Shown here piece after piece: positions 2,002-43,933 of a stretch of DNA of 64,000 nt. The position numbers and the translations under genes were made by a program. The notes beneath the pieces are model-generated. The model saw nothing but the letters and a program-made list of their open reading frames with translations, was not told where the DNA came from and did no database searches. Within the stretch, counting starts at the first letter, position 1, and each line of letters starts with the position of its first letter. Location of the stretch: the NCBI GenBank assembly GCA_010119095.1, contig SAAG01000001.1, forward strand, positions 20,823 through 84,822, written 5' to 3'. The stretch is from Candidatus Altimarinota bacterium (GTDB lineage Bacteria > Patescibacteriota > Gracilibacteria > BD1-5 > UBA6164).

Positions 2002-2002
2002 T

Positions 2003-16565: not shown

Positions 16566-18377
16566 TTAATTAAATAGTTTAATAAAATATACAGTATTAT
16601 CTATTTTATTATAAATATATTCTACCTCTTCATCTAATAATGCTGTATTGACTTCAAATAACTTATTATATTCTCTTTCTGTTCAGATGTCTCCAATTAT
16701 CTGTAATCAATAATTTTTATCAAATAATTCTTTAAATGATTTTAAATCATTTAAAATATTTTTTCAAAAACTATAAAAAATAATAAGAGTGTCTGAAAAA
16801 TATTCTCAAGAAAAAAACTTATCCTTTTTTAAGGTGTCAATACATGGGTAAATTGCATAAATAAATGGGGCCCAAAAAATAAACTTATATTCAAACTTAC
16901 ATGATAACATAACTGTAGATATGACATTTGGTCATTTTATTCATACGATATTGTAATCCATGTAAAACAAGTTTATATATTTTTTTATTATATCTCATGG
17001 ATCCAATATACAAGGAGCTCATCAATCAGTTAGATATACAATCTTTTTTCAGTCTTCTAATAAATTATTTAGTTTTTTTAAATCTTCTCATAATAAATAT
17101 ATTTTATTTAACTCTTTATCGATTTTGATTTTTGAGCTTTCTTTTGTATCAATATCATTTTTTAAATCATCTCAGTAATAAAAGTTTTTGTTCTCTATAT
17201 CTATTCAAGCTCAAGTTAACAATTTCTTTACTCAATCAATCGTTTCACAAAAAATATGATCTGCATTTTTAATTATATCCAATGTCTTATTTGTAAATCC
17301 AAATATATTACTTAATGGTGATGATAAAAAATAAAATATTTTTTCTTCTCAATACTTATTGTATCTCATATATCATTTAAAGTCGTCCATTATTTTATGA
17401 TACAAAAACAATGTGATTTTTTTATAGTTTTTACTATAATATTTTAATGATTCACTATTAAAACTATCTTTTGTATCAACATAATTAACATATCCTAAAT
17501 CAGTTGGATACATTACCTCAATATAATAATTATTTGGAATTTCTATGTTTTTTAAAAAGTTTAGTAAATCTTCTTTATCATTAAAATTAAGTATTAATGT
17601 TGACTTAGATATCAAATCTCATAATCAAAATAATTTGATAAATTTATTTGTTTTTAATACAAAATAAGTAATTATTTCATTAATTTCGTCTTCTCTATTA
17701 TTTTTATAATCTCAGAGATATATAAAGTTTCCATAATTTGCATGTGATATTGAATAATAATTTATTAATTCACTATGATACTGATTTACATATACTTTAT
17801 TAAAATACTTATTTAAATATATATTGATTTTAATACTTTCTTGTCAAAATATATAGTCGTCTCCATAATAAAGAACCAATATATCTGAAACATTATTGAA
17901 ATTTATATTAAAAATATCTGAAACATCTTTAATTTCTATGTTTTTTAAATCTAGTTTATTTAATAATCAAGTGAGTCACAATGAATTATTTGTATATATC
18001 ACTTTTGAAAAAGACAATAAATCTAAATCCAATTTTGATAAATTTCATATATCCCCATCTACTCAAATATAAAAAATTGTTTGATCTTCTAAACTTTGAC
18101 AATTTTTTCAAAGCTTAAAAATCAAAGGTATGTCAAAATTATCATTTAAATACTCTAACAATTTAATTGTAGGTAAATCTACTGTTTTTTGCTTATCTAA
18201 AGGAGTAATTTGTCAAAATGAGAATTTTTCTCATATAATAATTTTATATTTATACTTTTCATTTCCTAAAAAAACTATATTTAATGAATTGTCATAATAA
18301 TCTACTTTAACTTTTATTTTATGATATAAATAGTATTTTATAATAAATCTTTCAGCATCCCTTAAATTAAGCCTCAT
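16566..18377 (-). CDS. Unknown N-terminal domain fused to an RsmI/tetrapyrrole-methylase-like domain
   Basis: A 603-residue protein. The first 330 or so residues match nothing I recognise. From about residue 345 the sequence follows the SAM-dependent tetrapyrrole methylase fold in the RsmI order: SSPLSNIFGFTNKTLDIIKN (compare PIGNLEDITLRA), ADHIFCETIDGVKKLL (compare ADVIAAEDTR), IVYLTDGGAPCILDPGDII (compare VSDAGTPLISDPG), IVGIKGPNVIST (compare PIPGPSA), then FIFGAPF. RsmI methylates 16S rRNA C1402, but related folds modify tetrapyrroles and, in borosins, peptide backbones. Its position beside radical SAM and nitrogenase-like genes makes a small-molecule or peptide substrate plausible. It starts 7 bp downstream of a radical SAM stop. 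Confidence 0.7.
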
Positions 18378-18384
18378 ATTTTAT

Positions 18385-19344
18385 TTATTTAGACAATATT
18401 GGTTTTATAAAATCCTCTCAGTATTTTATTACATATTTTGAAGTAAATCATGTACAATCATTAAAATAAATACAATTTTCACAATCTTTTTTCATATAAA
18501 ATCATGTATCGAAATTATATTTTTCTCATTTTGGTTTCCTTCTATCTAAATCGAACTGAAAGTCATAATTATGATACTCTTTATCAAAAATACATCTTCA
18601 AATATTATGAAATTTCATAGTTATTTTTAGCTTATTTTCTGATATTTTTTGTAATTCATTATAAAGTTTTAGTATCTTGGAAATTTCAACTCAAACATCA
18701 TTTGGATTAGCTAAATATTTATCATGAAATTCTTCAGGAAATAAATCAACTGGGACATACATTGTAATATTAAGTAAATTTACGCCAAGTTTAATCATCA
18801 ATAGTAAAAAACCTTCAAGTTGATTAACATTATCTTTAACGAGCACAAAATTAACTATCGTATTTATTCATTCTTTCTTACAATTCAACATTCATTGAAT
18901 AGTCTTTTTATAAGCTCAAGGTACTCACATAATCTTATCTGACAATTCTTCTTCATAAGCATGTAAAGAAAAATTCATATCTTCTATTTTGTGTTCTTTT
19001 AGTTTTTTAACAAATTTTAAATCATTTAACCTAATTCAATTTGTTTGAAATGTCTGTTTTAATCATAAAGAATTTCAAAACTCCAATATATTGAAAATTT
19101 CTGGATGCATAGAAAAGTCTCATCCTTCATAAATTATACATCAAGCTCAATTATTTTTTCTTTCTAATACAGTATTCTTAATTCTTTCAAATGAATAAAA
19201 AGTTTGATAATCTTCTTCTTTTCTTAGTCATGTGTTTTCATCATCAATTTTTGAAACTTGAGCATTACAAAAACCACATTTCGCATTACATACCATTCAC
19301 ACAAATACTCATTGTGTATAATCTTTCTGATAATTTGTAGACAT
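18385..19344 (-). CDS. Radical SAM protein with C-terminal cysteine cluster
   Basis: A 319-residue protein with C19-N-A-K-C23-G-F-C26. IIYEGGDFSMHP follows, in the place of the usual GGEP motif, and NFSLHAYEE forms the later barrel strand. Near the end a second cysteine group (CENCIYFNDC) suggests an auxiliary iron-sulfur site. It follows a TPR gene by 36 bp and precedes the RsmI-like gene by 7 bp. Substrate unknown. Confidence 0.88.
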
Positions 19345-19380
19345 AATTTATATGTAATAAAAATTTAATAAAATACTTTT

Positions 19381-19863
19381 TTACTTAATACTATTTATCA
19401 TATTTTGTATTTTTTTTACAAAACTTTCATCATATTTTGATGTTTCAGTATTATTTTCAGACTTACTATCAGAATCGCTTTTAATTTGAAGGAAATTTAT
19501 TAAATTTTGATTATTAGGCTCCATTTTTTGTGCTAATTTTAAATATTTATCAGCATTTTTTTTATCATTTAAGTTTGTAAAAACAACTCAAAGATTAAAA
19601 ACTACATTAAAATTCTTTCATTTGGTTAATAAATCTCATTTTTTATAATAGACTAATGACTCTTCAAGATTTTTTTCAATCATATATATTTCTCATAATC
19701 ATAACAAACAACTTATATAATTTTGTAATAAATTATCATCTTTGCTAAAATCCTCATTTTCATATGATGTATAAATTTCCATTAAAATTTTCTTTGCTTC
19801 TTCTACTTTTCATTGATTTTTCAATGAGTATCATTCTTCAAGTCTTTGTCAGATTGTATTCAT
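19381..19863 (-). CDS. TPR-repeat protein
   Basis: A 160-residue helical protein with about three TPR-like units (residues 3-40, 45-78, 79-115: EEGYSLKNQGKVEEAKKIL; GEIYMIEKNLEESLVYYKKG; GVVFTNLNDKKNADKYLK). The tail is Ser/Glu/Lys-rich. No signal peptide, so cytoplasmic. It starts 23 bp after the stop of the NifD/K-like gene and probably acts as an adaptor for the array's enzymes; that is inference from position. Confidence 0.75.
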
Positions 19864-19886
19864 ATTATAGTAATTAATAATAAAAT

Positions 19887-21146
19887 TTACATATTCAACA
19901 TATTAGCAATTCTATTGATAAATAATAAAGTTCATTTATATCAAAAATAAGGCTCATAAGTGTAAACATGATAATCATAACTTGGAAAACCAAACTGCAT
20001 AATTTTTGTTTTAGAATATCAATTTAACTTATTGTGAGAATTAGAAATAAATAAGTCTATATTATCTACATCCTCCTCATTATTAAAATAACCTACTACT
20101 TTATCTTTATCAATAACTATTGATTTATTGTTACTGATGTGTTTTTCTTCTCAATGAATATATATTTTTTCTAGTTCAAATCATAGAGTATTAGATAAAT
20201 CAACAATTCAATTTAATAAATATGGGTCTCAGTAAAAAGAAATCTTTTTTCAGATAAATGTATGCGGGATAACCCATTTGATTATATCTATCTTATTATA
20301 TAAAGTTAATTCTTTTTCTATAAATTTTTTAGCTTTTTCTTCGACATTGAAATGTTCTCAAATAGTATTTATAAACTCTCCTGTTTTATCAAATCAAAAA
20401 GGCAAGTCTAACTCTAGTAAATCTGCATCTAATCTATTAGCTATTTTTTTTGCTGCTTTTCTTCAGTATGGTAATGAAATAATTGTTCATGCATTTTTCA
20501 CATTTAAAATATCTTCAAATTTTCATCAATCAAGCCATATTGATACTACATTTAGTCCAAGTGATTCAATAATTCTTTTTAACTCCTCTACATTTGCTAT
20601 ACAATCTCATTCTCCTCTATCAAAAAGATTTCAAATTATAGCAATATTTGTTTTTTCTGTTTTTCATCAATCGATATCAATATTTTTCGCTATAGAAAAT
20701 AATAAATCACTATATCAATCTAACCAACAATCTGTCATTGATCTAGAAGGAATATTGAAAATTGGTTTATTTGTTTTATACGATTCTTTAACTTCTTTTA
20801 TTATTCAATCGTAATCTGTTCAGACTATTTGACTCATTGGCATTGAGGAAACAAATAATTGCTTTACAAAATCTTGTTCATATACAATCTTTAATGTTTC
20901 AATAAATCTATTATTTCTATTTCATATTACATTATCTGCATCAGCAATTGTAGATAGAAATTTATGCTTTCAATCTGCTTGCCTTAAATTAGAAGTGATA
21001 TCATGATTTCATTGAACAAAATCATTTTTAAAGAAAAAACAATCTGGACTATCTATCCATAGATATGAATCTTTTATAGCATTAATTCATAGTAAGACTC
21101 AAACAAGATAGGTTACTGGAAAATTATTATTCATATATTGTTCCAT
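19887..21146 (-). CDS. Nitrogenase component 1-like protein (NifD/NifK/BchN superfamily), small subunit
   Basis: A 419-residue protein. SPDCFFF (Cys36) sits where NifD has HGPxGC. The middle has TDYDGIIKEVKE and FNIPSRSMTDCWLDGYSDLLFS, as in the component 1 family. The second domain starts TNIAIIGNLFDRGEGDC with ESLGLNVV. The third domain has IGKKISFYGDPYLLNGIVD and ends with FGFPSYDY and FGYKGTLLFINRIANML, the family's GFP..D and GY.G...L...I.N signature. Cys at the first and third cluster positions of NifD is absent (Thr/Val and Ser respectively). No FeMo-co ligand pattern is evident. It starts 9 bp after the large subunit, so the two form an operon and probably a heteromer. Confidence 0.85.
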
Positions 21147-21155
21147 ACTAGAAAA

Positions 21156-23042
21156 TTATTTATTAAAATACTTACTGTAATTTTTGTAAAATTTCATTTC
21201 ACATAAATTGATAAGTCAATTTATTGTATCTAATGCCCCTTTATATCAAACAAAAAAGTTTTTTAGATTTATTTGGTTTAATCATCTTTCAATTATTCTA
21301 TTATCAAAGTATAAATCTGAATAAATTAAATCAAATTTACTTTCTTTAAACTTTTTTTCAAAACTTTTTTCATCAGAAAAAAATCATATTTTAACTTTTT
21401 TATTTTTTAATCATATAATTTCTTTTATTTCCTCGTGATTTCAATCTTGCTTAGTATAATCATTATCATTCCTATTATTGTTTGTAAAATTGTCATATAC
21501 ATATATTTCTGTATTAAATCACATCTCATCTAGAAAGTCTATTATATCAACATTATTCATATAATCTGAATTTATAAATTTTTCAACCTCTTTTTTCCCA
21601 ATCAGAAAAATTCATACAGTATATGACTTTGATTTTACATATTCAACTTTATTTTTATACATATCTTTATAACTTTCTCACAACAAATCTTTTGAGACTT
21701 TGATCCCTAATTTCTCTCATATAGATGAAATCCATTCATCAGTATATTTAATAGAATATGGATAAACTGGAAGTATATAATCTACTCATAATGATTGAAA
21801 AGGATATTCAAAAATCTCTTTCTGAAAATTATTTGGCGAAAATACAAATAACTCTGATTTTAGCATCAGTGGTAATAATCTAACATCTATAGTAGGTAAA
21901 AAAGATGTATTTATTTTCACTCATAATTTATTAAGCTCCTCTAATAAATTCTTTTGATATATATTCTCATGAAATCAAAATATAGATATAGATTTAGGTA
22001 TCTTTTCTAATTTATTTTTATCTATATCATCCAAATATTTTTCAAGTAGCTCGATTTTTTGTTCAAAAGGAGTTTTTTCAAGTTGTCATTGTAAAATAAA
22101 TGGTATATCTATTTTATCTTTTGCTTTTTTAAGTACAGAAAAAATATCATCTCATACAATTCTTGGAACACAGCAACAATTAAAACTAATTACCTTTGTA
22201 TTATTTTTTTCTATATTATCTTGTATATATTTCACTGCTTCTGATAATTTATCAGTTCCTTTTCACATTACGATATCTTCTTCACTCAAATCAGTAAATA
22301 ACCCTATTGAGTTTCATTCATTTTTTCATGATAAATATTGTTTTTTTTCATCGTCAGTTAAATAAAAATATTTATCAAAACTATGATCATAAAATCAAGA
22401 AGGAAAATTAAAAAAATGATATCCTTTATTCTTGTTATTTGGAGAAATTCCTTTACATTCTCTTTCTGCATGGGAAATAGATGCTTCAGGTAAATTTAAA
22501 CTTATACTCTGATCCAGATTTCTAAAAACACCTTCATGTATTAAAAATCTATATTTTTGTAATGGATGATTCCAATTTTGTATTATTGAGAAAGGAGGTC
22601 TTTCTGCTTTCCAAAAAATCTGGTAATATTCTTTTTTTGCCTTAATATCAATAGATAAGATTTTTAATAGTTCATCAAATATTAAATCACTTCATTTTAC
22701 TAAAAAAAATACCAAAAACTTTAAAAAACTTTCGTTTTGAATTTCACTATGAACTCACATACATATGTTATTTGTACACAATAAGGAACCACATTTTTTT
22801 TCTCAGAGATTATCTTTTATATTGAGGGGTAAAATCTCTCATGATAATTTATCAATGATTATTATATTAAATTTATCATTAATCCACTCTATACTTTTTA
22901 TTTCTATCAAAGATGAAAAAGCTGGAAAAACTGAAGTAAATAATTTTGTAAAAAAAACACTTGTTTGTAGTGATGGCTTAAATTTCTTACCCAAGAAATC
23001 TTTTGGTTTTATAACTCTATTTTTAAAAATTGTTTTCTTCAT
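21156..23042 (-). CDS. Nitrogenase component 1-like protein, large subunit with extra N-terminal domain
   Basis: A 628-residue protein. About 150 N-terminal residues are not typical; they contain Cys84, Cys89 and Cys94 (KKCGSLLCTNNICMG). The component 1 region follows: ECKGISP with Cys196, GKGTDKLSEAVKYI (compare FGG..KL..AI), and ISFNCCCVPRIVGDDIFSV with Cys289-291, matching the xCxxEIIGDDI block of NifK/NifD. The C-terminal domain ends FVGYKGALDTINGLINLC, the family signature. The cysteine equivalent to HGPxGC is missing; the small subunit carries that one. The two subunits might therefore share ligands for one cluster (inference). Longer than NifD/K (about 500). Confidence 0.82.
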
Positions 23043-23745
23043 AGTATTTTATTGTTTTATCAAAATTAATTAATTCAAATACTCATTTATCTATAAATTC
23101 TTTATATAAGTTTTTTATTTCTTTTCTTGTTACTGTAATTCAATAGTATCACTTAATTTCATTATAAGGTTTTATTGGATAAATCAAAAATAATTTTCTT
23201 ATAAAGAATTTACTATGCAAAAACAATAATATTTCTGGGATATCTAAATAATTATATTTCTGGGATATCTAAATAATTATATTTCAGTATAACAGTATGA
23301 AAAAATAATTTTTCACTAATTTTATTTTCTTCTAAAAATGCTAAAAAAATTTTATATTTTATAAATGCTTTATTATTTCAGTATATGTAATTAAAATTAT
23401 CCTCTTTTAATGAGTTACATGGTATTTGTATTATATCAATATATTTAAAAATTTCTTTATTAATCTTTTCTGTATCATTTATAACTCAAGATGTTTTAAT
23501 TATAATTTTTTTCAAGGACAATATTCTTTTATAAATAAGACTAAGTCCAATAAATTATTATAATTAAAAGGCTCAACTCATCATATATAAATATCTCATT
23601 TTTTATCTTTGTTTAATAAAACTTTTTCCTTTAATTTATCTATATCAGTATTTCCTTTTTTCCAGTCAAAATCACTTACATAATTTTTTGAACAAAAAAT
23701 ACATTTATTTTTACAATCGTTATTTATATCTACTATTATTTCCAT
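23023..23745 (-). pseudogene. Radical SAM gene broken by a 1-nt deletion and a 25-bp tandem duplication
   Basis: The start encodes C11-K-N-K-C15-I-F-C18, a radical SAM motif, followed by YIGGVEPFNY. At about 23510 a seven-base A run (coding strand) puts the frame out; with one more A the protein continues CPGKKIIIKTSGVINDTEK. At about 23230-23280 a 25-bp direct duplication shifts the frame back. Removing one copy and adding one A gives an intact protein of about 232 residues, ending TIKYYEENNF. It lies between NifH-like and component 1-like genes. Confidence 0.75.
23229..23283. repeat. 25-bp tandem duplication inside a radical SAM gene
   Basis: The unit ATTTCTGGGATATCTAAATAATTAT (shown here in part: ATTTCTGGGATATCTAAA) occurs twice head to tail, with the first bases starting a third copy. 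Its length is not a multiple of three, so it shifts the reading frame of the gene at 23023-23745. Copies are identical, implying a recent event. Confidence 0.85.
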
Positions 23746-23750
23746 AATAA

Positions 23751-24581
23751 TTATAACTTACTTGGATTAACTTCAAATGACTTAAAAAAACTATCAAATT
23801 CTTCTTCTGACATAGGATTTGGTAGTGTTTTACTTTCTTTCTTTACTGTTATTATATCATCAACTAATGTGTCAAACACTTTTATTATTTCAGCTTCATC
23901 ATTATATTCAGACAAAGTCATAGCTTTATATTCTGCACATGAAATCATATCACTTCTTGGTATATAAGCTATTACATCTAGTCCTATTTTTTTGACAAAT
24001 TTATTTATTATTTCTTTATCAAGAGTATTACTTCTTGCATTAACTATTACTCATCCGATATAAACTCAGTTTCTACTATATTCTCTAACTGCTTTACATA
24101 TATTATTACATGCATACATACTCATTATTTCTTCTGATATTACTATAAATATTTTTTCTCAGTATCACATCCTTAAGGGTGATGCAAATCATCAACATAC
24201 TACATCTCATAGTACATCAAAAAGTATTACATCATAATTTTCTTTTAGTAAATCTACATCATCAAAGATTTCAAACATTTTTGAAATTCATCTTCATGCA
24301 CATCAAGTTCAAGGAATAGGTCATCCTGCTTCAATACAATCGATTCAATTAAATCACTTTACACTTAATTCTTTTATTGATACATAATCTTCTTGTTTAT
24401 TCAACATTTCCATAATTGTTTTTATTCTTTTTCATCAGGTAAGTTTTTTTGTTGAATCTGCTTTTGGATCACATCAAACTTGCAACACTTTCATTCATTT
24501 TTTTGAAAATTGTGCAGATATATTACATGAAATTGTTGATTTTCAAATTCAACCTTTTCAATAAATTGCTATTCTTTCCAT
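23751..24581 (-). CDS. NifH/BchL-like nitrogenase iron protein (reductase component)
   Basis: A 276-residue protein very close in layout to NifH. P-loop YGKGGIGKST is at residues 7-16; GCDPKADST at 36-44; PGTGCAGRGI at 90-99 with Cys94; FDVLGDVVCGGF at 121-132 with Cys129. These two cysteines correspond to NifH Cys97 and Cys132, which hold the [4Fe-4S] cluster bridging the dimer. Arg97 follows Cys94, as in NifH. EEIMSMYACNNI matches switch II neighbourhood. Six or more of the conserved glycines are TGA-encoded. It starts 1 bp before the stop of the upstream radical SAM gene, and the component 1-like genes follow. It should pass electrons to those subunits with ATP hydrolysis. Substrate unknown; nothing else suggests N2 fixation. 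Confidence 0.93.
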
Positions 24582-24582
24582 A

Positions 24583-25704
24583 TTAATCTAATTTACTTAT
24601 AAAATTATTTATATAATTATATTTATCCAATATTTCTTTATTTTCTTTGTAATAAATTTTAATTTTATCATCAAAATCATCTAAGGAATATTTTTTATTA
24701 TTATTTTCAACATTTGTTTGCTTAATTTTTTTTTCTTTAGAATTTATAATTTTTATTGGAGAAAACTCTGCTCATCAATAAATCTCCTTGTAACTTTTCC
24801 GAACTCATTGACACGATATTTTATAAATACAACTTTCACATTGATCAAATTGAGTTTTTAATATATCTTTTTTTCTCTCCTTCCAATTAAACTGATCATT
24901 ATTATTAATATTATCTATATCACTAATATAATCAAGATTTTCTCCTAGAAACCTAACTAATAAGGCTCTGTAATTTTCCTTATCCATACTATAAAATATA
25001 CAAGGTGGAATTGTATCAAAAGTTATTCTTATATTATATTTTAATGAAATATATACTAACTTTTTCATATAATTTGAAAAATCGCTATATGAAAGAGTTA
25101 ATTCTTCCCAATTTTCTTTATTATCATCATTTAGCCATATAAAATTTATTCTAATATCATTGATTTTTTTTACCTTATAAAAGTATAAAACTGTTTCTAT
25201 AATTGTGTCTAGATTTTTTCTATTTAGAACTATATTTATACTTAAGTTATCTCTCAATAATCAATTATTATAAAATTCATTAAAATTATCAATTGCTTTC
25301 AACTTTTTTTTCAAACCTCCTTTAACTTGAGTCAAATAATCTTCTACTTCATCTAAATGTGAATGAATTGAAAAATTAACTCTTGTTAATCATGCTTCTA
25401 CAACTTTTTTTGTAAATTCATAATCACTAAATTTAACACCATTAGTAACAATATTTATATTTATAAATCAGTTATTTTTACAATATGAAATAATATCAAT
25501 TATTTGAGGATGAATGGATATATCTCATCATAAAAATCAAATTGAGTTATATCATTTTTTTGCATATGAATCTATTTTTTGTTTTAAGACATCAAGTGTA
25601 GTAAACTTTGAATCCCAATCTTTTGATTTTGAACTCATACAAAACTTACATCTATTATTGCAAGCTTTTCATATGTTTATTTCTATATGTTTAAAATTAT
25701 TCAT
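24583..25704 (-). CDS. Radical SAM protein with C-terminal cysteines and extended tail
   Basis: A 373-residue protein with C15-N-N-R-C19-K-F-C22, FLGGDISIHP in the GGE position and IVTNGVKF and VNFSIHSH barrel blocks. CESCIYKISC near residue 300 is a short auxiliary-cluster-like group, followed by a charged tail of about 60 residues. The upstream DUF483-like frame ends directly before its start, and the NifH-like start overlaps its stop region. May act with the nitrogenase-like enzyme. Confidence 0.88.
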
Positions 25705-26476
25705 TTATATATAATTAAAAATTAATACATCATCTATTATTATTTTATCTAAAACATTGTTAAGTTCAATCTTATAATTATTTATAATCTTTATTTTATA
25801 TCATTGTTTTATTTTAGCTATATTTTTATCTCAAAACTTATTATAAAAACTTCAAAATCAAATATTATCTCAATTTTCATCTAACGATACCCACTCAAGA
25901 TTTTTAAATACTAAATACTTTCTTTTTTCAAAAATTCAAAGTCTATTAAATCCTGCTATTTTATTAATAACTAATTGTATTTTATAGTTTCTTTTTCAAA
26001 GTACAACTGATTTTTTACAATTCATTGAACATGGAATATGATAAATCAATTTATTTTCAAATATATCTAGAAAAAAACTTCTATTATCTTTATTATTAAC
26101 CTCATTTTTTAGGTATTTATAAAAATCATTATCTTTTACTCATCCAAAATCATTAAATTTTTTTTATGCAACAATCTGGATAACCCAATAATTTTCAGAA
26201 TAAATTATAATTCTCTTTATCTAAGAATATTTCTTTATACTTTTTTAAAATATTTTTATCTTTAAATAAGAATAATGTTTTTCAATCCTCTGAATATCAA
26301 TTAATTTATTTTTTCAATAATACATTTATCACATTTTCAACATCTTTAACATTTTCTAATCTAGCTATAAGTTTATAATCTAAAGATAGTAATACCACAT
26401 TTAATATACCATCATTATGTATATTTTCTTTAAGGTTAATAACATCTTGTATAAAATTTAGATCTATTTTAGTCAT
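25705..26476 (-). pseudogene. DUF483-like protein, interrupted (in-frame TAA and +1 A insertion)
   Basis: The start encodes 56 residues up to TAA at 26306-26308. The same frame then continues to LLGYPDCCIKK, the cysteine motif of DUF483-like proteins. An eight-A run next to this motif puts the frame out; with one A fewer it reads CCIKKFNDFGGVKDND and goes on to IPCSMNCKKS and a normal end at 25705. The intact neighbour at 33478-34341 shows the same cysteine order. Either recent decay or homopolymer error plus one nonsense change. Confidence 0.65.
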
Positions 26477-27371: not shown

Positions 27372-27372
27372 A

Positions 27373-29221: not shown

Positions 29222-29269
29222 CAATAATAATAATTAATTATATCAATCTAATCTTTTATCATTTAAAAT

Positions 29270-31785: not shown

Positions 31786-32121
31786 TTAGCAAAACATATA
31801 ATAATAACATCTTAAACATTTTCATTTTTTGATTATAGCTTCCCTGAAGTTATAATAGTTATAGTTTATAAAGTACTTCTCTATTAGATTGTGATTATCA
31901 AAAACACAAAATGGAAATCAAACAAACTTTAATAAAATATCGTTTTTATTAAGCTTATCAATTAAGTCAATTATTCTATTAACTAGAACAATTTTATTAT
32001 ATGTAACGAAAAAAGAATAAAATATAATCTTATTATTTCAAGCTTTAATTGAATTTAAAATATAAATTAAAACTTGTTTATTGCTATTAAAATCATCGAT
32101 ATTTATTCTAACTTCCTTCAT
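31786..32121 (-). CDS. Small protein, possibly the C-terminal part of a lost radical SAM protein
   Basis: A 111-residue protein. FVGFPFCVFDNHN and the final KGKCLRCYYYMFC resemble the C-terminal regions of several radical SAM genes in this array (for example IPFCVIDKE and CKKCSMNNLC in the gene at 39891-40820). The radical SAM core is absent. It overlaps the end of the PqqE-like gene by 14 bp. Either a free-standing partner protein or a gene end. Confidence 0.5.
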
Positions 32122-34341: not shown

Positions 34342-34344
34342 AAA

Positions 34345-36456
34345 TTAATTAAATTTGTTATAAAAATCAGAGTTATATCTATCAAAAAAATATATTAATT
34401 TATTTTCATATTTTATTATATTATTCTTTATTGTATCCAATAATTTAACTAAGTCATCACTGTAATTTAGACTATTACCTTTTACCGCTAATCAGAGTAT
34501 TGAATTAAAATAATAATTATGATAATTATGATATCATAATGTTATTATAATCAAATCATCTTTGTACTTAAATTCTAGTATATAATCATTATACATGCTT
34601 GAATATGAAATATCAATTTCTTTATTTCAGTTAAATAGAACTTTATAAAATATCTTCCATAATTTTAAATAAACTTCATTAAAATAGTCTTTTGGGTTTC
34701 TTCAATATTTTATAAGTTCATCATACTTATATTTATCTAAATCAAATTTAAATTGATTACATATACTATGTTTTGATAATACATAATCTCAAATAACTAA
34801 ATAATCAATATCTGTAGATAAAAACATCTCAACTGCCTGCTCTGGATTCTCGATAATTGGTTCTCCTGCTGAGTTAAATGAAGTATTCATTATAACTGGA
34901 GTTTTAGATAAATTGTAAAACTTTTTCATAACCAAATAAAGCCTTTCGTTACAGTTTTTGTTTATTGTTTGATACCTTGCTGTTCAATCTATATGTACAA
35001 CTGATGGAATTTCTTTTCTTTTAGATTCTTTTACTACTCATGTAAAAGTCATATATGGACTTGAATAATCTGTTTCAAAATAATCCTTTATATTTTCCTC
35101 TAATATAATCGGGGCAAGTGGTCTCCATCTTTCTCTTAGCTTAATATCATTTACTCTATCTTTCATTTTCATTGATTTTGGTGAAGCAATAATACTTCTA
35201 AAGCCTAAAGCTCTTGGTCAAAATTCACTTCATCATTGAAACCATGCAATAACTTTATCATTGTTTATTTCTTTAGCCACATAATCACTTAATTTCTCAA
35301 AGTTTTTTATAAATTCATAATTTATATATTCTTTATATTTATCAATTACTATTTTTATTTGGTTATTATCATATTTAGGTCATATTCAATAATTGCTAAT
35401 ATTCACTCTTTTTTTATTGTTTCAATAGTCATAATATCAATACATTGCTGCTCATAATGATAATCATTGATCATTACAGGCTGGTTGAACAAATATATTT
35501 TTAAATTTAGTTTTTTCTAAAATCATAGTGTTTGCAAGACAATTAAGTGCTACTCCTCAAGATAAGCACAAATTATCTATTTTCTTATATTCATATGCAA
35601 TATTTGCTAAATATACCATTGCCTTTTCTGTTTCTTGCTGAACTTTTGCAGCTATGTCTGCAAATATACTATTTTCTATTCATTTTTTTCTATCTATTAA
35701 ATCCTTAGATGATAGTCAATATATATTCATCATATTTTTTATGACATAAAGCTGTGTATATTCTCAACTATTAAACAATCATAATTCCCTCTCTTTTTTT
35801 GTTCACTTTAAAAATATATCACTCAAATAGACATTTCAATTTTCATATTTAAATATCTCAACATCCTTATATCTATCAGCATTTCAATAAGAAGATAGTC
35901 ACATAAAAGATCATTCAGACAATCATATAAAATCAGAATGGAGATAGTAACATGCTCAAATTCAATATAAACCTTTTTTATTATCTAATTGAGTAGATGA
36001 AAGTTTTTCTATTTTATTGTTTTTCCCATACCGAATTGTTTGCATTTCTTCATTTCATGTTTCTTGATCTACTCATGATCAATCTACTGAAAGTATCATT
36101 GCTTCATTAAATTTTGATCAATAATATCAAGATGAACTATGAAGATAATGATGGTTAACTTTATCTATAAATACTACCTTCTTTCATTTTAGTTTTTTTA
36201 AGTCTTTGAATCAAGGGTAATTAACTATTACTATTTCATCAACCTCTTTCATATCAACAGCTTTAATTAACAAGTTTAATGCCTTTTTATGATATAACTC
36301 TTTATTATTTATAAATTTAATATTTGGAGCTTTCTTTACTCTAAATAATCTCTCAAGAGAAATAGAAAAAATACCCTCACGACTAACACATGACAAAGAC
36401 AAATCGTGACTTCATAAATTATGATTAAATCAAATATACAGTGTATTATTATCCAT
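34345..36456 (-). CDS. Carbamoyltransferase, NodU/TobZ family, with C-terminal extension
   Basis: A 703-residue protein. Conserved blocks in order: FNHNLGSHDLSLSCV, HHYLHSSSYYGS, DGSGVDQET, LSGGVALNCLAN, GGSEFGPRALGFRS (substrate/adenylate region), RERGRPLAPI, and TSFNSAGEPIIENPEQAVE. About 130 residues follow beyond the usual end (after IGDYVL) and match nothing I know. The family transfers carbamoyl groups using ATP. In this array it could carbamoylate a modified peptide or cofactor; a similar enzyme supports HypF-like chemistry. Only 2 bp before the downstream radical SAM neighbour. Confidence 0.9.
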
Positions 36457-36458
36457 AA

Positions 36459-37343
36459 TTAATTAAAGGTCTTATAATTAAAATAAAAACATTTATTACA
36501 CAACTTTAGGTAATCTAAATTATTCTTTTTTTCTAGAAATTCTTTCAAACTATATTGTCAAATTTCTCATAAATATCAAGTTTCATATAATTCATTCAAC
36601 GAACATTGATACACTCATCAATTTGAATTGATATATAAATAATCATACTTCATAACTTCGCAAAGATCATTCTCTTTTCTCCTTATAAAATATCATTTTA
36701 GTTTTTCTTCATCAAAAAACTGATTATGAATTTTCTTATTTATTATTCATCACCAATTATGGACTAGAGATATTCAATAATCTTTATTTAGTGATTTAGC
36801 TAATTTTATAAATCAGTTTAATTCTTTAATATTTAATAAAGATAGCATAAATTCCATGGAATAATTTATATTCATTTTATTAGCTTTCTTTAACAAATTC
36901 ATAAAATTTGCATAATAGTCTCATCAAGTAAGTTTGTTGTATAATTTTTCTTCTAAAGAAAAAACAGAAAATGTAAGAGAAACATTAAATCCTCTTTCTT
37001 TTAAACTTAATATTTTCTCTAAGTGAAAATCTTTTATAGATCATCATTTTGTCATAAAAAATAAATTTATTGTAGGAATTTCTTTAAATAGATATTCCAT
37101 AAAATCATTTATTTCTTTGTGCAAGAAAGCATCTCAAAGTCAACAAACCATAATCTCTTCGTAATTTCACTCTTTTAATAGTGAAACTATTTTTCTAAAA
37201 TTATCAAAACTTAAAAAAGAAAATGATTTTAACTGTTTTCTTGGACATACAATACATTCCATTGTACAATAATTTGTGATTTCTATTTCAATTCACCTTG
37301 TGACAGCACTACATTCAAAAACATTATCTTTTTTTTGGTTCAT
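36459..37343 (-). CDS. Radical SAM protein
   Basis: A 294-residue protein: C26-T-M-E-C30-I-V-C33 in a typical setting (IEIEITNYC), then VCGLGDAFLHKE in the GGEP position, and SLTFSVFS. A late cysteine set (LCEVMKYD, VYQCSLNE, LCNKCFYF) is SPASM-like. The end of the upstream radical SAM gene overlaps its start by 20 bp. Confidence 0.88.
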
Positions 37344-38223
37344 TATCAATTATTTTATCAATTAAATTATAAGTCAAAAAATCTCATGATTGTTTTGGTA
37401 TATCATATACTAATCTTATAATTTCATTGATATTATACAAATTTATTAAATTATTCAAACTAATATCATTTTCTTTTAGTGATAATAATTTCGTCTTATC
37501 ATTAATTTTACTTTTTAATGTATTTGAAATATTTTTATACTGCTTTTGAAGCCATAATAGAGAATCTAAATCTGAGTAGAAATATCAATCTGTATCAAGT
37601 ACAAACTGCTTTTCTATTGAAATTCAGTTAAAATATCCATATTTAGTAAATGATATTCAATTTATATTATTCTTTATATAATTATATATATTTTTTAGTT
37701 TTGAAAGATTATTAATATGCCATTTTTTTGTTGAAAAAACTGGCATAAATGCAATTTTTTTAAATCCATATTTAACTATTTCATCAAAACATATAATTGA
37801 ATTGTCTAAATAATCAGGATCATTTATAAAATTTATTACAATATTTTCTTGATATAATGATATAAGATCCATATCAAGTTTATTTCATTTATCAATATTA
37901 TCTATTGATAGATATATCTTAATATTATTTTTTTTAAAAAATTCTAATTTTTCTTTATCAAGTAATATTCAATTTGTTCAAACAGAATAATTACTTATAT
38001 TAAATTTTATATTATCCAAAAAATATCTAATCTTATCAAACTCCAAAAGTGGTTCTCATCAAAAAAAATTTATATTATACTTAGCCTTATTTTCGCTTAT
38101 AAAATCAATAAACAAGTCTAAATCATCAATAGATAAAGACTTGTTTTTAAACTCTAAATCACAATATTGACACCTTTTATTGCAGTTATTAGTTAAGATT
38201 AGCTCAATCAAAATATTATCCAT
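37324..38223 (-). CDS. Radical SAM protein
   Basis: A 299-residue protein: C14-N-K-R-C18-Q-Y-C21, INFFGGEPLLEF (two TGA glycines), SVGTNGILL and IYLSIDNID. The domain plan is like that of the gene at 26469-27371 and it too lacks a C-terminal cysteine set. 72 bp separate it from the preceding gene. Confidence 0.9.
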
Positions 38224-38295
38224 TTATTGTATATCTTTTTTTGAAATATTTATACTAATTAAAAGTATTATCTTATATTTAATTAATTTAAGATT

Positions 38296-39093
38296 CTAAT
38301 AATTTATAAAGTTTAATTTTATAAAACTATTACACTCTTTATAATAGTCAAGATAGGCATTTAATAATGGATATATATAATTTTCACGAACAACTCAATC
38401 TTTAAAAGATTCTTGATTTTCTTCTAAGTAATCTAGATAAAAATCACTATAAGTATCAAACTGGTTCTTGTCTTGTAATGAAAACATATAATTTCACAAA
38501 TTATATAAAAACAGTTCTTTATCATTATTGAATAATTTTTCATTTAGTTTATTAACTTTTGTAGTAGTGAATATCTTATATGATTCCGGTACTACTCAGC
38601 TTAACAAGTCTTTAATATTTTTCTTTTCTAATTCTATATTACTAATTCTTCATTTGTAATCAGAGCTTATATTACCTGAAACACTTGAATATAAATCAAA
38701 TTTAGTATTTTGAGTTTCTTTTTTTCCTGATTCTAATATATAATCTGTTTTACCCTCAGCATAGTCACAATAACTAATTAAATTATCTAAATAATTTTTA
38801 TATAAATATAGACCATTTTTTACTTCAATTACACCACTATATTTCACTAATTCGCCAGAAAATGAATTATAATCATCCACCTTTTTTGCATCTATATTTT
38901 TTTTAATTACTGTTTTTTTTATATTTTCATCATTACTAGGATTATTTCAGTCTAAATTTTGTATTCAAGTATTATTTGTTGCTAAATCTTTATTATTTGA
39001 TGACTCATATTTGAAATTAACCAAATAATAATACCCAGATAATAAAATTACCAAAATAACAATATTAACAATTAGTATTTTTTGTTTTTTCAT
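38296..39093 (-). CDS. Membrane-anchored extracytoplasmic protein of unknown function
   Basis: A 265-residue protein. A lysine-rich start and one helix (residues 6-27) are followed by an Asn/Ser/Lys-rich linker and a mostly helical, Tyr-rich domain. Two cysteines only. I do not recognise the family. Being the only exported protein in the array besides the precursor, it could bind the product at the cell surface (speculative). Start overlaps the Rossmann-fold gene by 29 bp. Confidence 0.6.
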
Positions 39094-39898
39094 AGTTAAA
39101 ATTAGTTAATAAATAATTAAAATTTTTAAAGTAATCTTTTTTTAAAAAACTATTATCCCTTTCTATATCTAAAATAACCTTTTCCATAATAAAATCAAAT
39201 ATGATTTTCTCTTCCTTTTTTTCAATAATTCTTCATTCTTTATCTATAAATACTATTATTCATTTCCCATCTTCATATTTATAGACAAATTTTGAGAAAT
39301 TATTTAGGACTATCTCTATAATATATTCAACATCCTTAATATCTCTACTTATAAATTTATATTTAATATTAAATAAGTCTGTATTAACACCTAATAAATT
39401 ATTTAACATATATTGAGTATCAACTAAAATAGACTCTTTAGTATTAATTTGTTTTTTCAAGTTATTTTTATTTTGTAAAACTAGACAATTAATTTTAAAA
39501 AAAACATTTTTATATTTAGTAAAAAAATTATTAAATATTTCTGTTTTTGCTTCTAATAAAAATAAAAAAAATTTTTTGTTTTCAATACAAGATTCAAGTA
39601 ATTTAATATCAAATGTAACTGGTAAATCAGAAAGTATCTTGTAATCATATATTTTTGAGTAAACTAAAACTTCTTCATAAATACTAATAGGATATGCACA
39701 CAATACCAATAAATCTACCTTATTATCTAAACACTTCTTGTAATCAGTGTATACATTTATTCAATACTTTTTTTCAATTATATTTTTAGTGGTCTTTGTT
39801 CTACATACTCATACAACATTGTAATTGTTTTTTTTAAAGAACTCAACAAACTGTTTTCATTGCCATCATAATCATAAAACTACAACATTTTTAATCAT
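39065..39898 (-). CDS. Rossmann-fold protein (Gfo/Idh/MocA or thiazolinyl-imide-reductase-like)
   Basis: A 277-residue protein. The N-terminus NVVVLGLGGQGKQFVEFFKK is a dinucleotide-binding motif (three glycines by TGA) and VVGVCRT follows as the second strand. DLLVLCAYPIS and ILSDLPVTF match the Gfo/Idh/MocA plan (compare EKP). The C-terminal part is less conserved. NAD(P)-linked reductases of this kind act on thiazoline or imine groups in peptide pathways. It starts within the end of the upstream radical SAM gene (8 bp overlap). Confidence 0.65.
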
Positions 39899-40820
39899 AT
39901 ATAGGATTTATGCAATTATCTCAATATATCTCATAATAATCTTTTGGTAATCCTCTACATAAGTTATTCATAGAACATTTCTTACATTTATTTGAGGTCA
40001 TCATCCATGTTAAATTTGTATTTCAAAGATTTCACTCGTGAATTGTAATAGAATCTTTATTAATTTTTATATTCTTTAATATTTGACTCCAATACTCTTT
40101 ATCTATAACACAAAAAGGAATATTTTCTAATACAAATTTTTTATTAAACAGATATGCAATTTTTAAACTCTTCTTTAAAGAATCGATTATATCTTTATAT
40201 TCAGGAATAATACTTAATTTTTCATCCTTAGAAAACATATCTAATGAATATGCTAATACAATTTGTCCTCTAGTAACACTAAAATTACACAAAAACTTAA
40301 CCAATCTAGGAATATCTCTATAATTATCTTTTGATACTACAGTATTTGTATCAAAGATAAAATTATTATCAATCTTTTTTAATATCTCAAAATTTCTAAG
40401 TGCATTTTTAATTCAATCAAAACTTCATTTTACCTGAGATATTTTATCATAAACTTCTTCATATCAATGAATAGATATTGTAACTCCAGTCATTCATTTT
40501 GAATGCATCTCCTTTAGATATTCAAGATTTTTAAATCAGTATCAATTACTATGAACTCTTATATGTTCAAATCAAAGTTTTTTAGAATAATCTATATAAT
40601 ATCATAAATTATCATCTAAAGTAGGTTCTCATCAAGAGAATATAACAAATTTTTTTCAATCATTAAATCACTTTTCTAAAAGTTTTATTACTTCTTTTTT
40701 TGATAAATTCTTATTATATTTAAATCTTAAATCTTTTTGATAACAAAAAACACACTTTACACTACACTTATATCATAAAAATATTTCTAATCACTCTAGA
40801 TCTTTTATATCTTTAATCAT
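39891..40820 (-). CDS. Radical SAM protein next to the Ser-His-Gly precursor (possible HxsC counterpart)
   Basis: A 309-residue protein: C19-S-V-K-C23-V-F-C26, FSGGEPTLDD, VHSNGYG and ISIHGYEE. The C-terminal group TSNKCKKCSMNNLCRG is SPASM-like. It starts 8 bp downstream of the precursor stop, so it is the nearest enzyme 3' of the precursor. In His-Xaa-Ser systems a second radical SAM protein, HxsC, pairs with HxsB; I cannot confirm orthology from sequence alone. Confidence 0.85.
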
Positions 40821-40828
40821 ATTATATA

Positions 40829-41554
40829 TTACCATCTACTTCCATGACTTCAATGTGATCCATGACTTCAATGTGATCCATGACTTCAATGTGATCCATG
40901 TGAACCATGTGAACCGTGACTTGCATGTGAACCATGACTTGCATGTGAACCATGACTTGCATGTGAACCGTGTGATCCATGTGATCCATGTGATCCATGT
41001 GATCCATGTGATCCATGTGATCCATGTGAACCGTGTGAACCGTGTGAACCATGTGAACCATGTGATCCATGTGAACCATGTGATCCATGTGAACCGTGTG
41101 AACCATGTGAAATTGTTGTAGTAGAAGCTGGAGTTCATGAATAATGTCAATTTATCAATCAACTTGCATGTGATGCTGTAGTTGTAGCTGTACATGTTGT
41201 TTTTCAAACTGGATCAGCAACTTGAGATCAATATACTGGAGCATTTGTTGTCGCTCAAGGAGTTGCAGAATAATGTCAATTTCAAGCTGAGCTCGCATGT
41301 GCTGACTGTCCTGTAACTGTACATGATTTCCATCAAGTTGAATTATCAGCATTAGTGGCTCATGGCAGATCTACATTATGATGTGGAGTAGCAAGATTCC
41401 AAGTATCTGATCATGCTAGAACATCATCTAGTCATGATAATAAAACTGCTCAAACTCCTAATCATAAAGCATCTTTTTTGCTTATCTTTCAACTTTCATC
41501 AGTTAGAAACCCCTTAATTTTCTTTTTGATTTTAGGAAATACTTCTTTTTTCAT
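40829..41554 (-). CDS. hxsA: His-Xaa-Ser repeat precursor protein (HxsA-like)
   Basis: A 241-residue protein, visible only with TGA read as Gly. A basic leader (residues 1-22) is followed by DALGLGVGAVLLSGLDDVLA, a hydrophobic stretch that may be a leader or membrane-targeting segment. Residues about 60-147 contain two similar units, each with one Cys, an HAS motif, and GHYS.TP..TT. Residues 149-238 are 30 consecutive Ser-His-Gly or Ser-His-Ala tripeptides, then Ser-Arg-Trp. The glycines in the repeat use GGA, GGT and TGA, which shows selection on the peptide rather than the DNA. It fits HxsA, the substrate of the HxsB/C radical SAM enzymes. Confidence 0.9.
40838..41110 (-). repeat. 30 tandem 9-bp repeats encoding Ser-His-Gly/Ala
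   Basis: A tandem array of 9-bp units (coding strand TCACATGGN with variants) that gives 30 Ser-His-X tripeptides. Variation is mostly at third positions and by exchange of GGN, TGA and GCA. The opposite strand also stays open, but that is a by-product of the repeat. Such arrays change length by slippage. Confidence 0.9.
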
Positions 41555-41590
41555 AATAATGAAATAAATAATAAACTAATATAAAACAAT

Positions 41591-43105
41591 TTAAATAGCA
41601 TCACACTGGCTAATAACAGGTCCATCAAAAGATAATCACATATTTATCCAATTTTCAAATACTGCCTTATCTTCTTTATTTCTTAACTTATCAAAAATAT
41701 AATCAAAAATTGCTATATCCAAAATCATTTTACTGTCTTTTAAATAATTTGGGATAATATTACCACTCATCTTATATGAATTTATTGGACATACTCCTAT
41801 GTATGGCTTATAAACACTATCATTATATCAAGGTAATCAATCTAAAGTACTCGCTTGAACCATTACTTTTGTAGTTTCACTATTTATCATTGCATTATAA
41901 GCTTCATATCATGGGTAATTCGAAAAGTCAACATTATTCAAATCAGTCATCATAAAACTATCATCTCACATTCTTCATAACATCCTTCATTCATCACAAC
42001 TATAAACTTTTCAATCATAATTATAAGCAACCTGACCAACACATGCTCAACAAGGACTTCTTAAGTCTAGAAAATTTGGGTCAATTGGTGTTAATATCTT
42101 ATATAAATATATTGCAGATAACTTCTCTCTGAATAATATTCATTTTTTATTTAATTTCAATATATAATTCATTGACTTTTTAAAAAAGTCCATAAATTCA
42201 TCATTTGTGTATCATAAATCTCTTAATTGTGTAGATGCAAATCAGTATGGGTTTAGAGCTCTTAAAAAAATTCAATCTAATCATAATCAAACATATGTAT
42301 CAATTGTTTCTTTATATCTATCTAAAGTCTTTTTAGTAACTGTAAGAAGTGCTCCTACTCTTTTCTCTACATTATTTTTTAGATATTGTTCATTGATTCT
42401 TTTTATCCAATATGTGACTTCCTTAAAACTATTTCAACTTTTAAAACTCCTGTTGTAATTATGAGTTTCTTCATCTCAATCTAATGAAGTAGATATATCT
42501 ATTCATTGTGAAACAATATAATCTAATTTTTCATCATCCATTAAAGTTAAGTTGGTAACAAGTGCAAAAACAACATTTTTTCATAAATGTAATGCTTTTA
42601 TTTTTGCATATTCAACAATATATTTGATAACTGGCCAGTTAAGTAAAGGCTCTCATCATTGAAATTCAATAATTATGTTATTATTTGATGTGTAAAAAAT
42701 AGTATCAACGACTTTTTTTGCAGTATCTAGAGACATGTCCATATTTCTAGCTGTAACTGGTGCTGCTGCTGCATGACAGTATTGACACTTATGATTACAT
42801 CTTAATGTCACTACAATAATATGTAAATTTGGTCAATATGCTAAAAATTCACTTTTTTTTGCATACAGCTTTGTCATATCTTTTTCATAATTTTCTCATT
42901 TTATAAATTTTCTATCGACTAATTCTTCATACTTATCTCATGAAGAAATATCTCAAGAGATAAAATCATTAAACTCTTTATTAGTTAAAAATGAATATTT
43001 TCAAACATCATTAGTAATCAAATATGAATCTTTATCAAATTTTTTAAATCTAAAAAATCATAGTTTACTATTCTTTATTTTTTTTATTTTATCAAAATCC
43101 AACAT
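41591..43105 (-). CDS. hxsB: His-Xaa-Ser system radical SAM maturase HxsB
   Basis: A 504-residue protein closely following HxsB. N-terminal SFLTNKEFNDFISG and NLHIIVVTLRC103NHKC107QYC110H hold the cluster motif. Then EFQGGEPLLNW, LVTNLTLMDDEKL, ISTSLDGDEETHNYNR, LLTVTKK, GIFLRALNPYGFA, DLRSPCGACVGQVAYNYDGKVYSCDEGRMLGRMGDDSF: the last run (about residue 370) is the HxsB hallmark, including the DEGRMLG box and auxiliary cysteines. It sits between HxsA-like and HxsD-like genes, as in known Hxs loci. It should install bonds in the Ser-His-Gly repeat. Confidence 0.93.
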
Positions 43106-43128
43106 TTAAAAAAAATTATCAATTAAAT

Positions 43129-43320
43129 CTAATTATTATCAATGTAAATAACATAATTCATAAGTTCATTAAAAATCTCGTCTATATCAGACTCTGCTTC
43201 TATAACCAATTCTCATTTTTCATATTTAATATTTGCAATATCTTTATAATCACTTATTGCCTCATCAATAGACTTTTCACTATAAATTTTATAATCTATT
43301 TTATAACTTTTTTTTAACAT
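43129..43320 (-). CDS. Short HxsD-like protein
   Basis: A 63-residue acidic protein: IDYKIYSEKSIDEAISDYKD then GELVIEAESDIDEIFNELMNY. The order (Asp-Tyr strand, YS..I..A..Y helix, short strands, FNEL helix) matches HxsD. It lacks the C-terminal helical extension of the longer copy. 16 bp after the longer HxsD and 23 bp before HxsB. Likely a peptide-binding partner of the maturase. Confidence 0.7.
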
Positions 43321-43336
43321 CTTTATAATTTAATAA

Positions 43337-43933
43337 TTATTTTTTAGTTTTTTTCACTTTTTTATCTTTAGTAAATTTTTCTTTTACATCTTTAACTGCA
43401 TCAACATCTACTTTTATAGATGGCTTTTCTTCAGATTCTTTTTCATATTCTTGTTCGATTTCTTTTAAAATTCTTTCTATTTCATCTTCATCTACTTTAA
43501 GTTCAGGATCATTTTCTATTTCCTTTAAAATATCATCGATATCCTTATCAAAATCTATTTGATTTTGATCTTCACATAAACAATCATCAGTGTTAATCTC
43601 TACAAATCATCATGTTTGTAAACTATTTGCAATTGCTGCTCATACTATTTTCTCTCTTATATCTTTATTATCTTTTTCAAGCTTATCTCTTAGATAAACA
43701 CTTAAAAGTTCATCAGAAAAATCTCATATAACTTCTTCCGGTTTATTTTTTACTCATTGTTTTTTAGTAAATTGTAAAACTATATTTTTATCTTCATCTA
43801 AAAAAAAGAAAAAATATCCTTTGTCTAAATAGTTATAAGCTGCTTTCAATACAATATCTTTTGAGAAAATTTTTGAATCAATTAATAATTCAAATTTATC
43901 TCATTTTACTTTTTCTTTTAAAAATTCTTTCAT
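43337..43933 (-). CDS. hxsD: HxsD, His-Xaa-Ser system partner protein
   Basis: A 198-residue protein. Residues 10-105 follow HxsD: FELLIDSKIFSKDIVLKAAY, then FFFLDEDKNIVLQFT and SDELLSVYLRDKLEKDNKDI with the terminal IREKIVGAAIANSL. A further 95 residues are acidic and then lysine-rich (ends KKVKKTKK), probably disordered; this tail is longer than in typical HxsD (about 100 residues). It is the first gene of the array; a possible promoter lies just upstream. Confidence 0.85.

Follow-up and report, generated by a model that had tools for sequence, protein, structure and literature searches.

A predicted nitrogenase-like reductase in the variable tail of an Hxs peptide locus in Patescibacteria, and its co-occurrence with HxsB in three bacterial groups

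The DNA analysed here is a stretch of 64,000 nucleotides (the window, from whose first letter all positions are counted unless stated otherwise) of a Candidatus Altimarinota bacterium from the class Gracilibacteria (GenBank assembly GCA_010119095.1, contig SAAG01000001.1, positions 20,823 to 84,822), and our subject is a gene array on its minus strand, at 16566-43951, which joins a His-Xaa-Ser (Hxs) peptide locus with many radical S-adenosylmethionine (radical SAM) genes and a trio of nitrogenase-like NifH, NifD and NifK genes. The array consists of 30 open reading frames (ORFs, listed under code 25), all on the minus strand; with remnants included, 97.5% of its length is coding, and 28 of the 29 gaps are of 80 bp or less (10 are overlaps and one gap measures 419 bp), which bears out the single co-directional array of some 27 genes given in a preliminary description of this DNA made from its letters. 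Several of the ORFs are remnants (23023-23745 and 31446-31712, possibly also 25705-26049 and 31786-32121), so that the number of functional genes may be below 27. The Pfam scan gives 12 intact radical SAM genes, each above the PF04055 cut-off, plus one broken copy, and the thirteen counted earlier are right if the broken copy is included. The host genome (1.53 Mb; 1,534 kb) has 24 radical SAM matches, 23 above the cut-off, and 12 of them lie inside the 27.4-kb array, against a chance expectation of 0.43; chance clustering is thus ruled out, and an assembly artefact is ruled out as well, the gene order recurring in independent genomes. The window's contig is number 59 of 220.

At its head the array is, judged by NCBI curated models, an Hxs locus, a system predicted by Haft and Basu (excerpts of PMC9062424) and of a kind for which ribosomally made peptides are the predicted products, because HxsD, HxsB and HxsA all score above their cut-offs. 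HxsD (43337-43951, 204 aa, with a long acidic C-terminal extension) matches TIGR03976 with 55.4 bits (cut-off 50), and it is followed by a small protein of 63 aa without a family (43129-43320) and by HxsB (41591-43105, 504 aa), a radical SAM/SPASM maturase with 489.2 bits against TIGR03978 (cut-off 370); HxsD and HxsB are co-located in relatives too. The HxsA precursor (40829-41554, 241 aa), which the preliminary description did not name, matches NF038313 (HxsA4) with 95.9 bits (cut-off 55), and is composed of a leader, motifs of the HASGxxNGHYSGTP type and a C-terminal HGS repeat, with 27 HGS and 36 histidines in all. A collagen-like surface protein was considered for the same ORF and rejected, since the Pfam Collagen match (45.6 bits) is the HGS repeat and the HxsA4 score is higher. 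Relatives of HxsA are present in 27 of the 32 Hxs loci examined. Next comes an HxsC-like radical SAM protein (39891-40835) with a CX3CX2C motif and a C-terminal CX2CX5C, matching PF04055, and scoring 88 bits for HxsC4 and 79 bits for HxsC, both below cut-off. It is one of four array radical SAM proteins whose top NCBIfam match is HxsC4 (79 to 127 bits, cut-off 500).

The nitrogenase-like trio lies further along the array. The NifH-like reductase (23751-24581, 276 aa) matches PF00142 with 302 bits and falls below all NCBIfam equivalog cut-offs listed; its P-loop and the two cysteines of the bridging [4Fe-4S] cluster are invariant in nine aligned sequences, including the window's own. Subunit D (21156-23042, 628 aa, NifD/NifE-like with an N-terminal extension) and the NifK-like subunit K (19887-21146, 419 aa) match PF00148 with 73.6 and 149.8 bits, respectively. 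Their AlphaFold2 models reach a mean predicted local distance difference test score of 83.9 for D and 85.7 for K, and Foldseek relates the predicted K model to the fold of NifK, NifN and dark-operative protochlorophyllide oxidoreductase (DPOR) at a template modelling (TM) score of about 0.75, while the predicted D model is related to NifD/NifE with probability 1.00 and a query-normalised TM of 0.37-0.43 (best 50 rows). By Pfam, alignment, AlphaFold2 and Foldseek together, the trio belongs to the broad nitrogenase-like superfamily. Its gene also informs on the genetic code: the NifH-like gene contains 21 TGA codons, of which 18 stand at mostly-Gly and 0 at mostly-Trp columns of six standard-code relatives, which indicates, for the one gene checked, that the genome reads TGA as glycine. 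Some public protein sets seem to translate TGA as tryptophan, with the conserved GDD motif appearing as WDD in many entries (P0122 and other relatives).

Membership in a named family is a different matter, as every equivalog test failed. For nitrogenase proper the scores were 318.9 bits for nifH (cut-off 394.35), 26.7 for nifD (653.55) and 53.1 for nifK (427.3), and for DPOR, chlorophyllide reductase and CfbCD they were 300.1 for CfbC (402), 221.1 for BchL (345.15), 179.9 for BchX (331.2), 43.5 for BchN (419.95) and 36.7 for BchZ (529). The six P-cluster cysteines and the cofactor cysteine are not kept in the alignments of D (31 sequences) and K (23 sequences), where the only invariant cysteines are C196 and C291 in D and C36 in K. 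Since just three are invariant in D and K, we predict one [4Fe-4S] cluster per D/K pair and an enzyme resembling protochlorophyllide reductase, one that does not fix dinitrogen. In DPOR a single bridging [4Fe-4S] cluster is reportedly bound by one aspartate and three cysteines (a title cited in PMC11423573); in the window's family the three invariant cysteines are split, two in D and one in K, and no fourth ligand was identified. According to excerpts of PMC12552129, DPOR and Cfb have no clusters other than [4Fe-4S], while the P-cluster of methylthio-alkane reductase uses six cysteines. A second NifD/NifK-like pair was seen in one relative (G072, contig 68, L077:13645-17554), the sole NifH match of that genome being on another contig.

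When the Hxs loci of the order are compared, a constant head and a variable tail can be read directly from gene content and order. HxsD, the 63-aa protein, HxsB and HxsA each occur in 9/9 loci with nitrogenase-like genes, and in 20, 18, 23 and 18, respectively, of 23 loci without them (23 of the order's 39 such loci, all chosen for HxsB). Behind HxsA the tail holds many radical SAM genes in some loci and few in others, these counts being lower bounds from a home-made profile that missed radical SAM genes detected by Pfam. Family scans covered 20 hand-picked tail proteins (10 from G063, G018 and G051, and 10 from G030 and G031; 3/10 per set matched no family). Among tails without nitrogenase-like genes, that of G063 has a tryptophan-halogenase-like and an L-PSP/FkbO-like protein, and that of G018 a glycosyltransferase and a sugar epimerase; the nitrogenase-like-positive tail of G030 carries a tryptophan-halogenase-like protein, a UbiA prenyltransferase and a pair of PPDK_N and PEP-utiliser proteins. 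Such tail enzymes suggest a tailoring pathway of the natural-product kind. The genes for the tryptophan-halogenase-like flavoproteins of these small-genome Hxs tails lie at L090:4399-5715 and L068:7556-8821.

Physical linkage of the two parts is observed directly beyond the window. Of the ten class genomes that have component 1 (the D/K proteins), six carry HxsB on the contig of the NifH-like gene at a distance of 10 to 24 kb, and one of these six (G079) is assembled as one contig with the two genes 24 kb apart. As for the remaining four, the HxsB contig stops inside HxsA (G030, G072), just past HxsA (G055) or 3.5 kb past HxsB (G058). The breaks of draft assemblies fall within the HGS repeat of HxsA or right behind it (L069, L074, L075), which hides the linkage. 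The same-contig and overlap counts for Elusimicrobiota, Myxococcota and a 38-genome set (see below) were tallied by eye from tables; by these, HxsB and K lie on one contig within about 26 kb in 10/16 Elusimicrobiota genomes and in 9/38 of the set. The most compact case is Elusimicrobia RBG_16_66_12, where HxsD-HxsB-HxsA-rSAM-rSAM-NifH-NifD-NifK (rSAM, radical SAM) run in one direction over about 9 kb and HxsA has the HGS repeat.

Co-occurrence was assessed in three groups, with HxsB accepted at E<=1e-20 in the order and the 38-genome set and at E<=1e-60 in the class, the Elusimicrobiota and the Myxococcota; Fisher p values ignore relatedness. Among 77 genomes of the order, component 1 is found in 9, NifH in the same 9 and HxsB in 48, and all nine positives (9/9) have HxsB. 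Across 353 genomes of the class the numbers are 10 and 49, with both in 10/10 (p 1e-9), and the one class genome outside the order with component 1 or HxsB (G079) has both. Nine of the ten positive class genomes measure 1.0-1.5 Mb, the other (G058) 2.7 Mb. In evenly drawn samples of the other two phyla (phylum labels taken from centre records L146 and L157), the K clade occurs in 18, HxsB in 31 and both together in 16 of 198 Elusimicrobiota genomes (p 3e-13), and in 36, 96 and 34, respectively, of 273 Myxococcota genomes (p 1e-15). Pooled over the three groups, component 1 or the K clade is accompanied by HxsB in 60 of 64 genomes. These large searches scored the first few candidates per genome, and their misses and match numbers are provisional. 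Some genomes of the two phyla hold many K-clade matches (16 in G380, 9 in G377), a striking expansion of nitrogenase-like subunits.

Additionally, a K-clade scan of named records, partial in that it used one peptide pattern, gave 49 loci labelled Elusimicrobia, Myxococcota and relatives, Deltaproteobacteria, Bdellovibrio, Spirochaetes or simply bacterium, the records being metagenome-assembled genomes or bins. Behind these loci stand 38 genomes, and HxsB is in all of them (38/38), 37 above cut-off and one as two contig-end pieces; 15 of these genomes recur in the two phylum samples, so that the sets are not independent. For the HxsB search 38 of the 49 loci were used, the others (L140, L144, L149, L152, L162, L170, L171, L172, L174, L175 and L179) being second loci of included genomes. 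In the K tree a supported branch (95/90) sets all 11 Patescibacteria sequences apart from the rest, and the association of K with HxsB is present on both sides of it. Conserved linkage and the strong co-occurrence across three groups thus speak for the earlier claim that Hxs, radical SAM and nitrogenase-like genes form one system. The refutation named for that claim was that related genomes have either part without the other nearby and show no co-occurrence, and here the outcome is one-sided: the nitrogenase-like enzyme is without HxsB in only 4/64 genomes, but HxsB is frequently without the enzyme (39 of the 48 HxsB genomes of the order).

The other genes of the array may be taken in order from its head. 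Beyond the HxsC-like gene lie a Rossmann-fold oxidoreductase-like protein (39065-39898; PF01408 23.2 bits, cut-off 24; NF040723 30.4 bits, cut-off 450), a 265-aa protein with an N-terminal hydrophobic segment and no family in the scans (38296-39093), a radical SAM protein (37324-38223, PF04055) and another with a weak SPASM match (36459-37349; PF04055; PF13186 20.5 bits, cut-off 21.5). A carbamoyltransferase of the NodU/TobZ type follows at 34345-36456 (PF16861 218.5 bits, PF02543 97 bits), then a 287-aa protein with 9 cysteines and no family above cut-off (33478-34341), a radical SAM protein (32108-33484, PF04055) with SPASM-like C-terminal cysteines (CX2CX5C), a 111-aa ORF, perhaps a remnant, with a C-terminal CX2CX5C (31786-32121), and a PPDK_N (ATP-grasp) gene reduced to a C-terminal stump of 88 aa (31446-31712; PF01326 profile positions 255-311 of 328). 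In G030 (L068:231-1965) a 241-aa PPDK_N protein adjoins a PEP-utiliser mobile-domain protein, perhaps as a split ATP-grasp pair.

Up to the NifH-like gene there are a radical SAM protein (30634-31446, PF04055), a HemN/HemW/HutW-like one (29270-30604; PF04055, best NCBIfam match 110.7 bits, below cut-off), an HxsC4-like one (28289-29224; NF038332 127.3 bits, cut-off 500), an HxsC-like one (27373-28296; PF04055, NF038332 79.4 bits, cut-off 500), another radical SAM protein (26469-27371, PF04055) and, directly upstream of NifH, a further HxsC-like one (24583-25704; PF04055, NF038332 96.2 bits, cut-off 500). The broken radical SAM gene (23023-23745, main piece 23500-23745, partial PF04055 match of 27.8 bits) is split into three ORFs in different frames and sits between the NifH-like and NifD-like genes, where no gene was called in three mapped genomes with the same NifD type (G030, G033, G072); together with the PPDK_N stump it points to gene turnover in the array. 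Past K lie a TPR protein (19381-19863, PF13181), a radical SAM protein (18385-19344, PF04055) and a 603-aa protein (16566-18377) with an RsmI/tetrapyrrole-methylase-like domain at residues 349-569 (PF00590 24.9 bits, cut-off 27.8; TIGR00096 39.5, cut-off 167.9). No NifB model is among the best 25 NCBIfam matches of each array radical SAM protein, and the Pfam scans list no other tetrapyrrole-pathway family for the array proteins. The preliminary description had correctly picked out HxsD, the carbamoyltransferase, the HemN-like protein, the weak Rossmann reductase, the RsmI-fold methylase and the nitrogenase-like genes, some of them below curated cut-offs; its two DUF483-like proteins and PqqD-like N-terminus found no counterpart among Pfam matches listed at E<=0.05.

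To the left of the array are related genes, namely a second carbamoyltransferase on the minus strand (304-2001, PF02543 286.3 bits), whose family is represented in four of nine positive Hxs loci and in three of 23 negative ones, and radical SAM genes spanning the window's left edge and 5-6 kb past it. Two such genes lie on contig C59 at 14646-21017 (contig positions), with families found in 7 and 6 of the nine genomes that are positive; as they frequently stand at the far end there, the cluster may span about 50 kb. The window's 304-16070 also encodes an asparagine-synthase-like amidotransferase, a UDP-galactopyranose-mutase-like protein, a GT2 glycosyltransferase, a GtrA protein and a class II aldolase-like protein.

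Taken together, we consider it probable that the variable tail of this Hxs peptide locus includes a predicted NifHDK-like reductase which carries out ATP-driven reductive tailoring of the Hxs product and does not fix nitrogen. To hypothesize, HxsA would be made and then presented by HxsD and the 63-aa protein, and its residues would be modified by HxsB and the HxsC-like radical SAM enzymes, by analogy with other radical SAM peptide maturases. The NifH-like dimer would hydrolyse ATP and pass low-potential electrons to a D2K2 core bridging a single [4Fe-4S] cluster per pair, and the core, to go by its fold and cysteine content, would reduce an unsaturated group in the cavity equivalent to the nitrogenase cofactor site, as protochlorophyllide reductase does. 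The likeliest substrate would be a group built by radical SAM chemistry on HxsA, or on a small molecule destined for attachment to HxsA, and the carbamoyltransferase, the methylase and other variable genes may decorate the product. Only tentatively can we go one step further and propose that the NifH-like and D/K proteins directly reduce radical-SAM-rebuilt groups on the His-rich HxsA, which would make a class of ribosomally synthesized and post-translationally modified peptides common to Patescibacteria, Elusimicrobiota and Myxococcota; we hold this to be possible, with more doubt than belief.

Several findings weigh against reductive tailoring of an Hxs product. Taken by itself, the order gives only a weak co-occurrence (p 0.012; at genus level 5/5 vs 23/34, p 0.12), and four K-positive genomes have no HxsB match at E<=1e-60, two with a strong K (G461, G811) and two with a weak one (G573, G734). 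Among Myxococcota, HxsB and K are within 26 kb in only 1/34 genomes (G359), with another case 124 kb apart on one contig (G586), so this phylum mostly shows co-occurrence without neighbourhood. The K gene of RBG_16_66_12 consists of two overlapping reading frames, and no array radical SAM protein reaches HxsC proper (TIGR03977, at least 267.9 bits), the best having 82.0 bits (28289-29224). Finally, the HGS core is nearly constant while the tail enzymes vary, and therefore the tail may act on something besides the core; neither a substrate residue nor a second precursor came to light.

This last point leads to the alternative that survives best, namely that the NifHDK-like and radical SAM genes make a small-molecule cofactor or metabolite (e.g., tetrapyrrole-like or aromatic), with HxsA as carrier or metal-binding partner. 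It would agree with the little variation of the HxsA core, with the halogenase-like, UbiA prenyltransferase and PPDK_N/PEP-utiliser proteins in relatives' tails, with the tetrapyrrole-methylase-fold protein and HemN-like radical SAM protein of the array, and with protochlorophyllide reductase and Cfb, which have tetrapyrrole sites and no clusters but [4Fe-4S] (excerpts of PMC12552129). However, curated cut-offs are reached by neither the methylase nor the HemN match and such genes come and go among relatives, the array is listed with no other tetrapyrrole-pathway family, and the K clade is so rarely found without HxsB in the three searched groups (4/64); we therefore judge this reading rather unlikely. 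It overlaps in part with the favoured one, and the likelihoods given to the two are not meant to add up to a whole. The preliminary description had left peptide or cofactor maturation side by side: peptide maturation is favoured, because HxsA is in the array and the nitrogenase-like enzyme is seldom without HxsB, but the enzyme may act either on the peptide or on a partner small molecule.

That D/K form a NifEN-like scaffold, building a metal cluster or inserting it into the His-rich HxsA, seems improbable to us. By sequence D scores best against NifE, NifN and NifE are among the best folds, and HxsA offers its 36 histidines, but NifB models are missing from the NCBIfam matches listed for the array radical SAM proteins and the cysteine triads are down to 2+1 invariant residues. 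Still more improbable is that the Hxs head merely marks a hypervariable island in which the nitrogenase-like genes ride along as passengers and serve some other purpose, e.g., sulfur or nitrogen assimilation. Tail content does differ widely among genomes, the Myxococcota genes are mostly on separate contigs, and other group IV relatives act in sulfur assimilation (excerpts of PMC11423573). Nevertheless, passengers are disfavoured because in Myxococcota the co-occurrence persists without neighbourhood, and further by the 60/64 genomes of the three groups and the 38/38 of the partly overlapping set, the 9-kb run in Elusimicrobia and the presence of the association on either side of the branch that separates the Patescibacteria. 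That the reduced genome encodes a true nitrogenase has next to no chance, as despite the 318.9 bits of the NifH-like protein against nifH the trio is below the nifH, nifD and nifK cut-offs, and this reading is refuted in substance by the missing ligands, neither the six P-cluster cysteines nor any further invariant cysteine for a cofactor being kept.

Tailoring of an Hxs product by a nitrogenase-like reductase differs from known systems in several respects. Haft and Basu are said to have made the Hxs prediction in 2011; our array shares with that system an HxsA-type precursor, the HxsB maturase and HxsD above curated cut-offs, and differs in having no HxsC above cut-off, eleven further intact radical SAM genes, the NifHDK-like trio and a long variable tail. 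Meheust et al. reportedly described, in 2020, a novel nitrogenase paralog of groundwater Elusimicrobia accompanied by radical SAM proteins. Outside the window's lineage the named K relatives are Elusimicrobia, Myxococcota/Deltaproteobacteria and Omnitrophota, and GWA2_69_24 and RBG_16_66_12 carry the K clade, and we infer that the clade is this paralog, here tied to HxsB and HxsA in Patescibacteria and those phyla. With BchLNB and CfbCD the trio shares the (predicted) fold and a number of cysteines that would suit one [4Fe-4S] cluster, but it scores far below their equivalog cut-offs, its three invariant cysteines are distributed two to D and one to K, and the array lacks any other listed tetrapyrrole-pathway family. 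The group IV methylthio-alkane and isethionate reductases likewise have a NifHDK-like trio beside radical SAM genes, the Mar partner being MarB (excerpts of PMC11423573); unlike the window's proteins, MarDK has the six P-cluster cysteines and an active-site cluster (excerpts of PMC12552129), and the neighbourhood differs. Our searches, with most subscription journals outside their scope, found no literature joining Hxs and nitrogenase. The radical SAM part of the paralog's neighbourhood may already be known; what appears new within the literature searched is its connection with Hxs and the Hxs product.

A nitrogenase paralog of three bacterial groups thereby gains a testable partner in the Hxs peptide system, itself one for which no described product was found. 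If the link is true, nitrogenase-type chemistry would extend to peptide natural products, and small-genome bacteria would devote some 20-50 kb to one metal- and radical-based pathway. Such small-genome bacteria are thought to live on other cells, and HxsA/HxsB can serve as a marker in looking for a cultured host.

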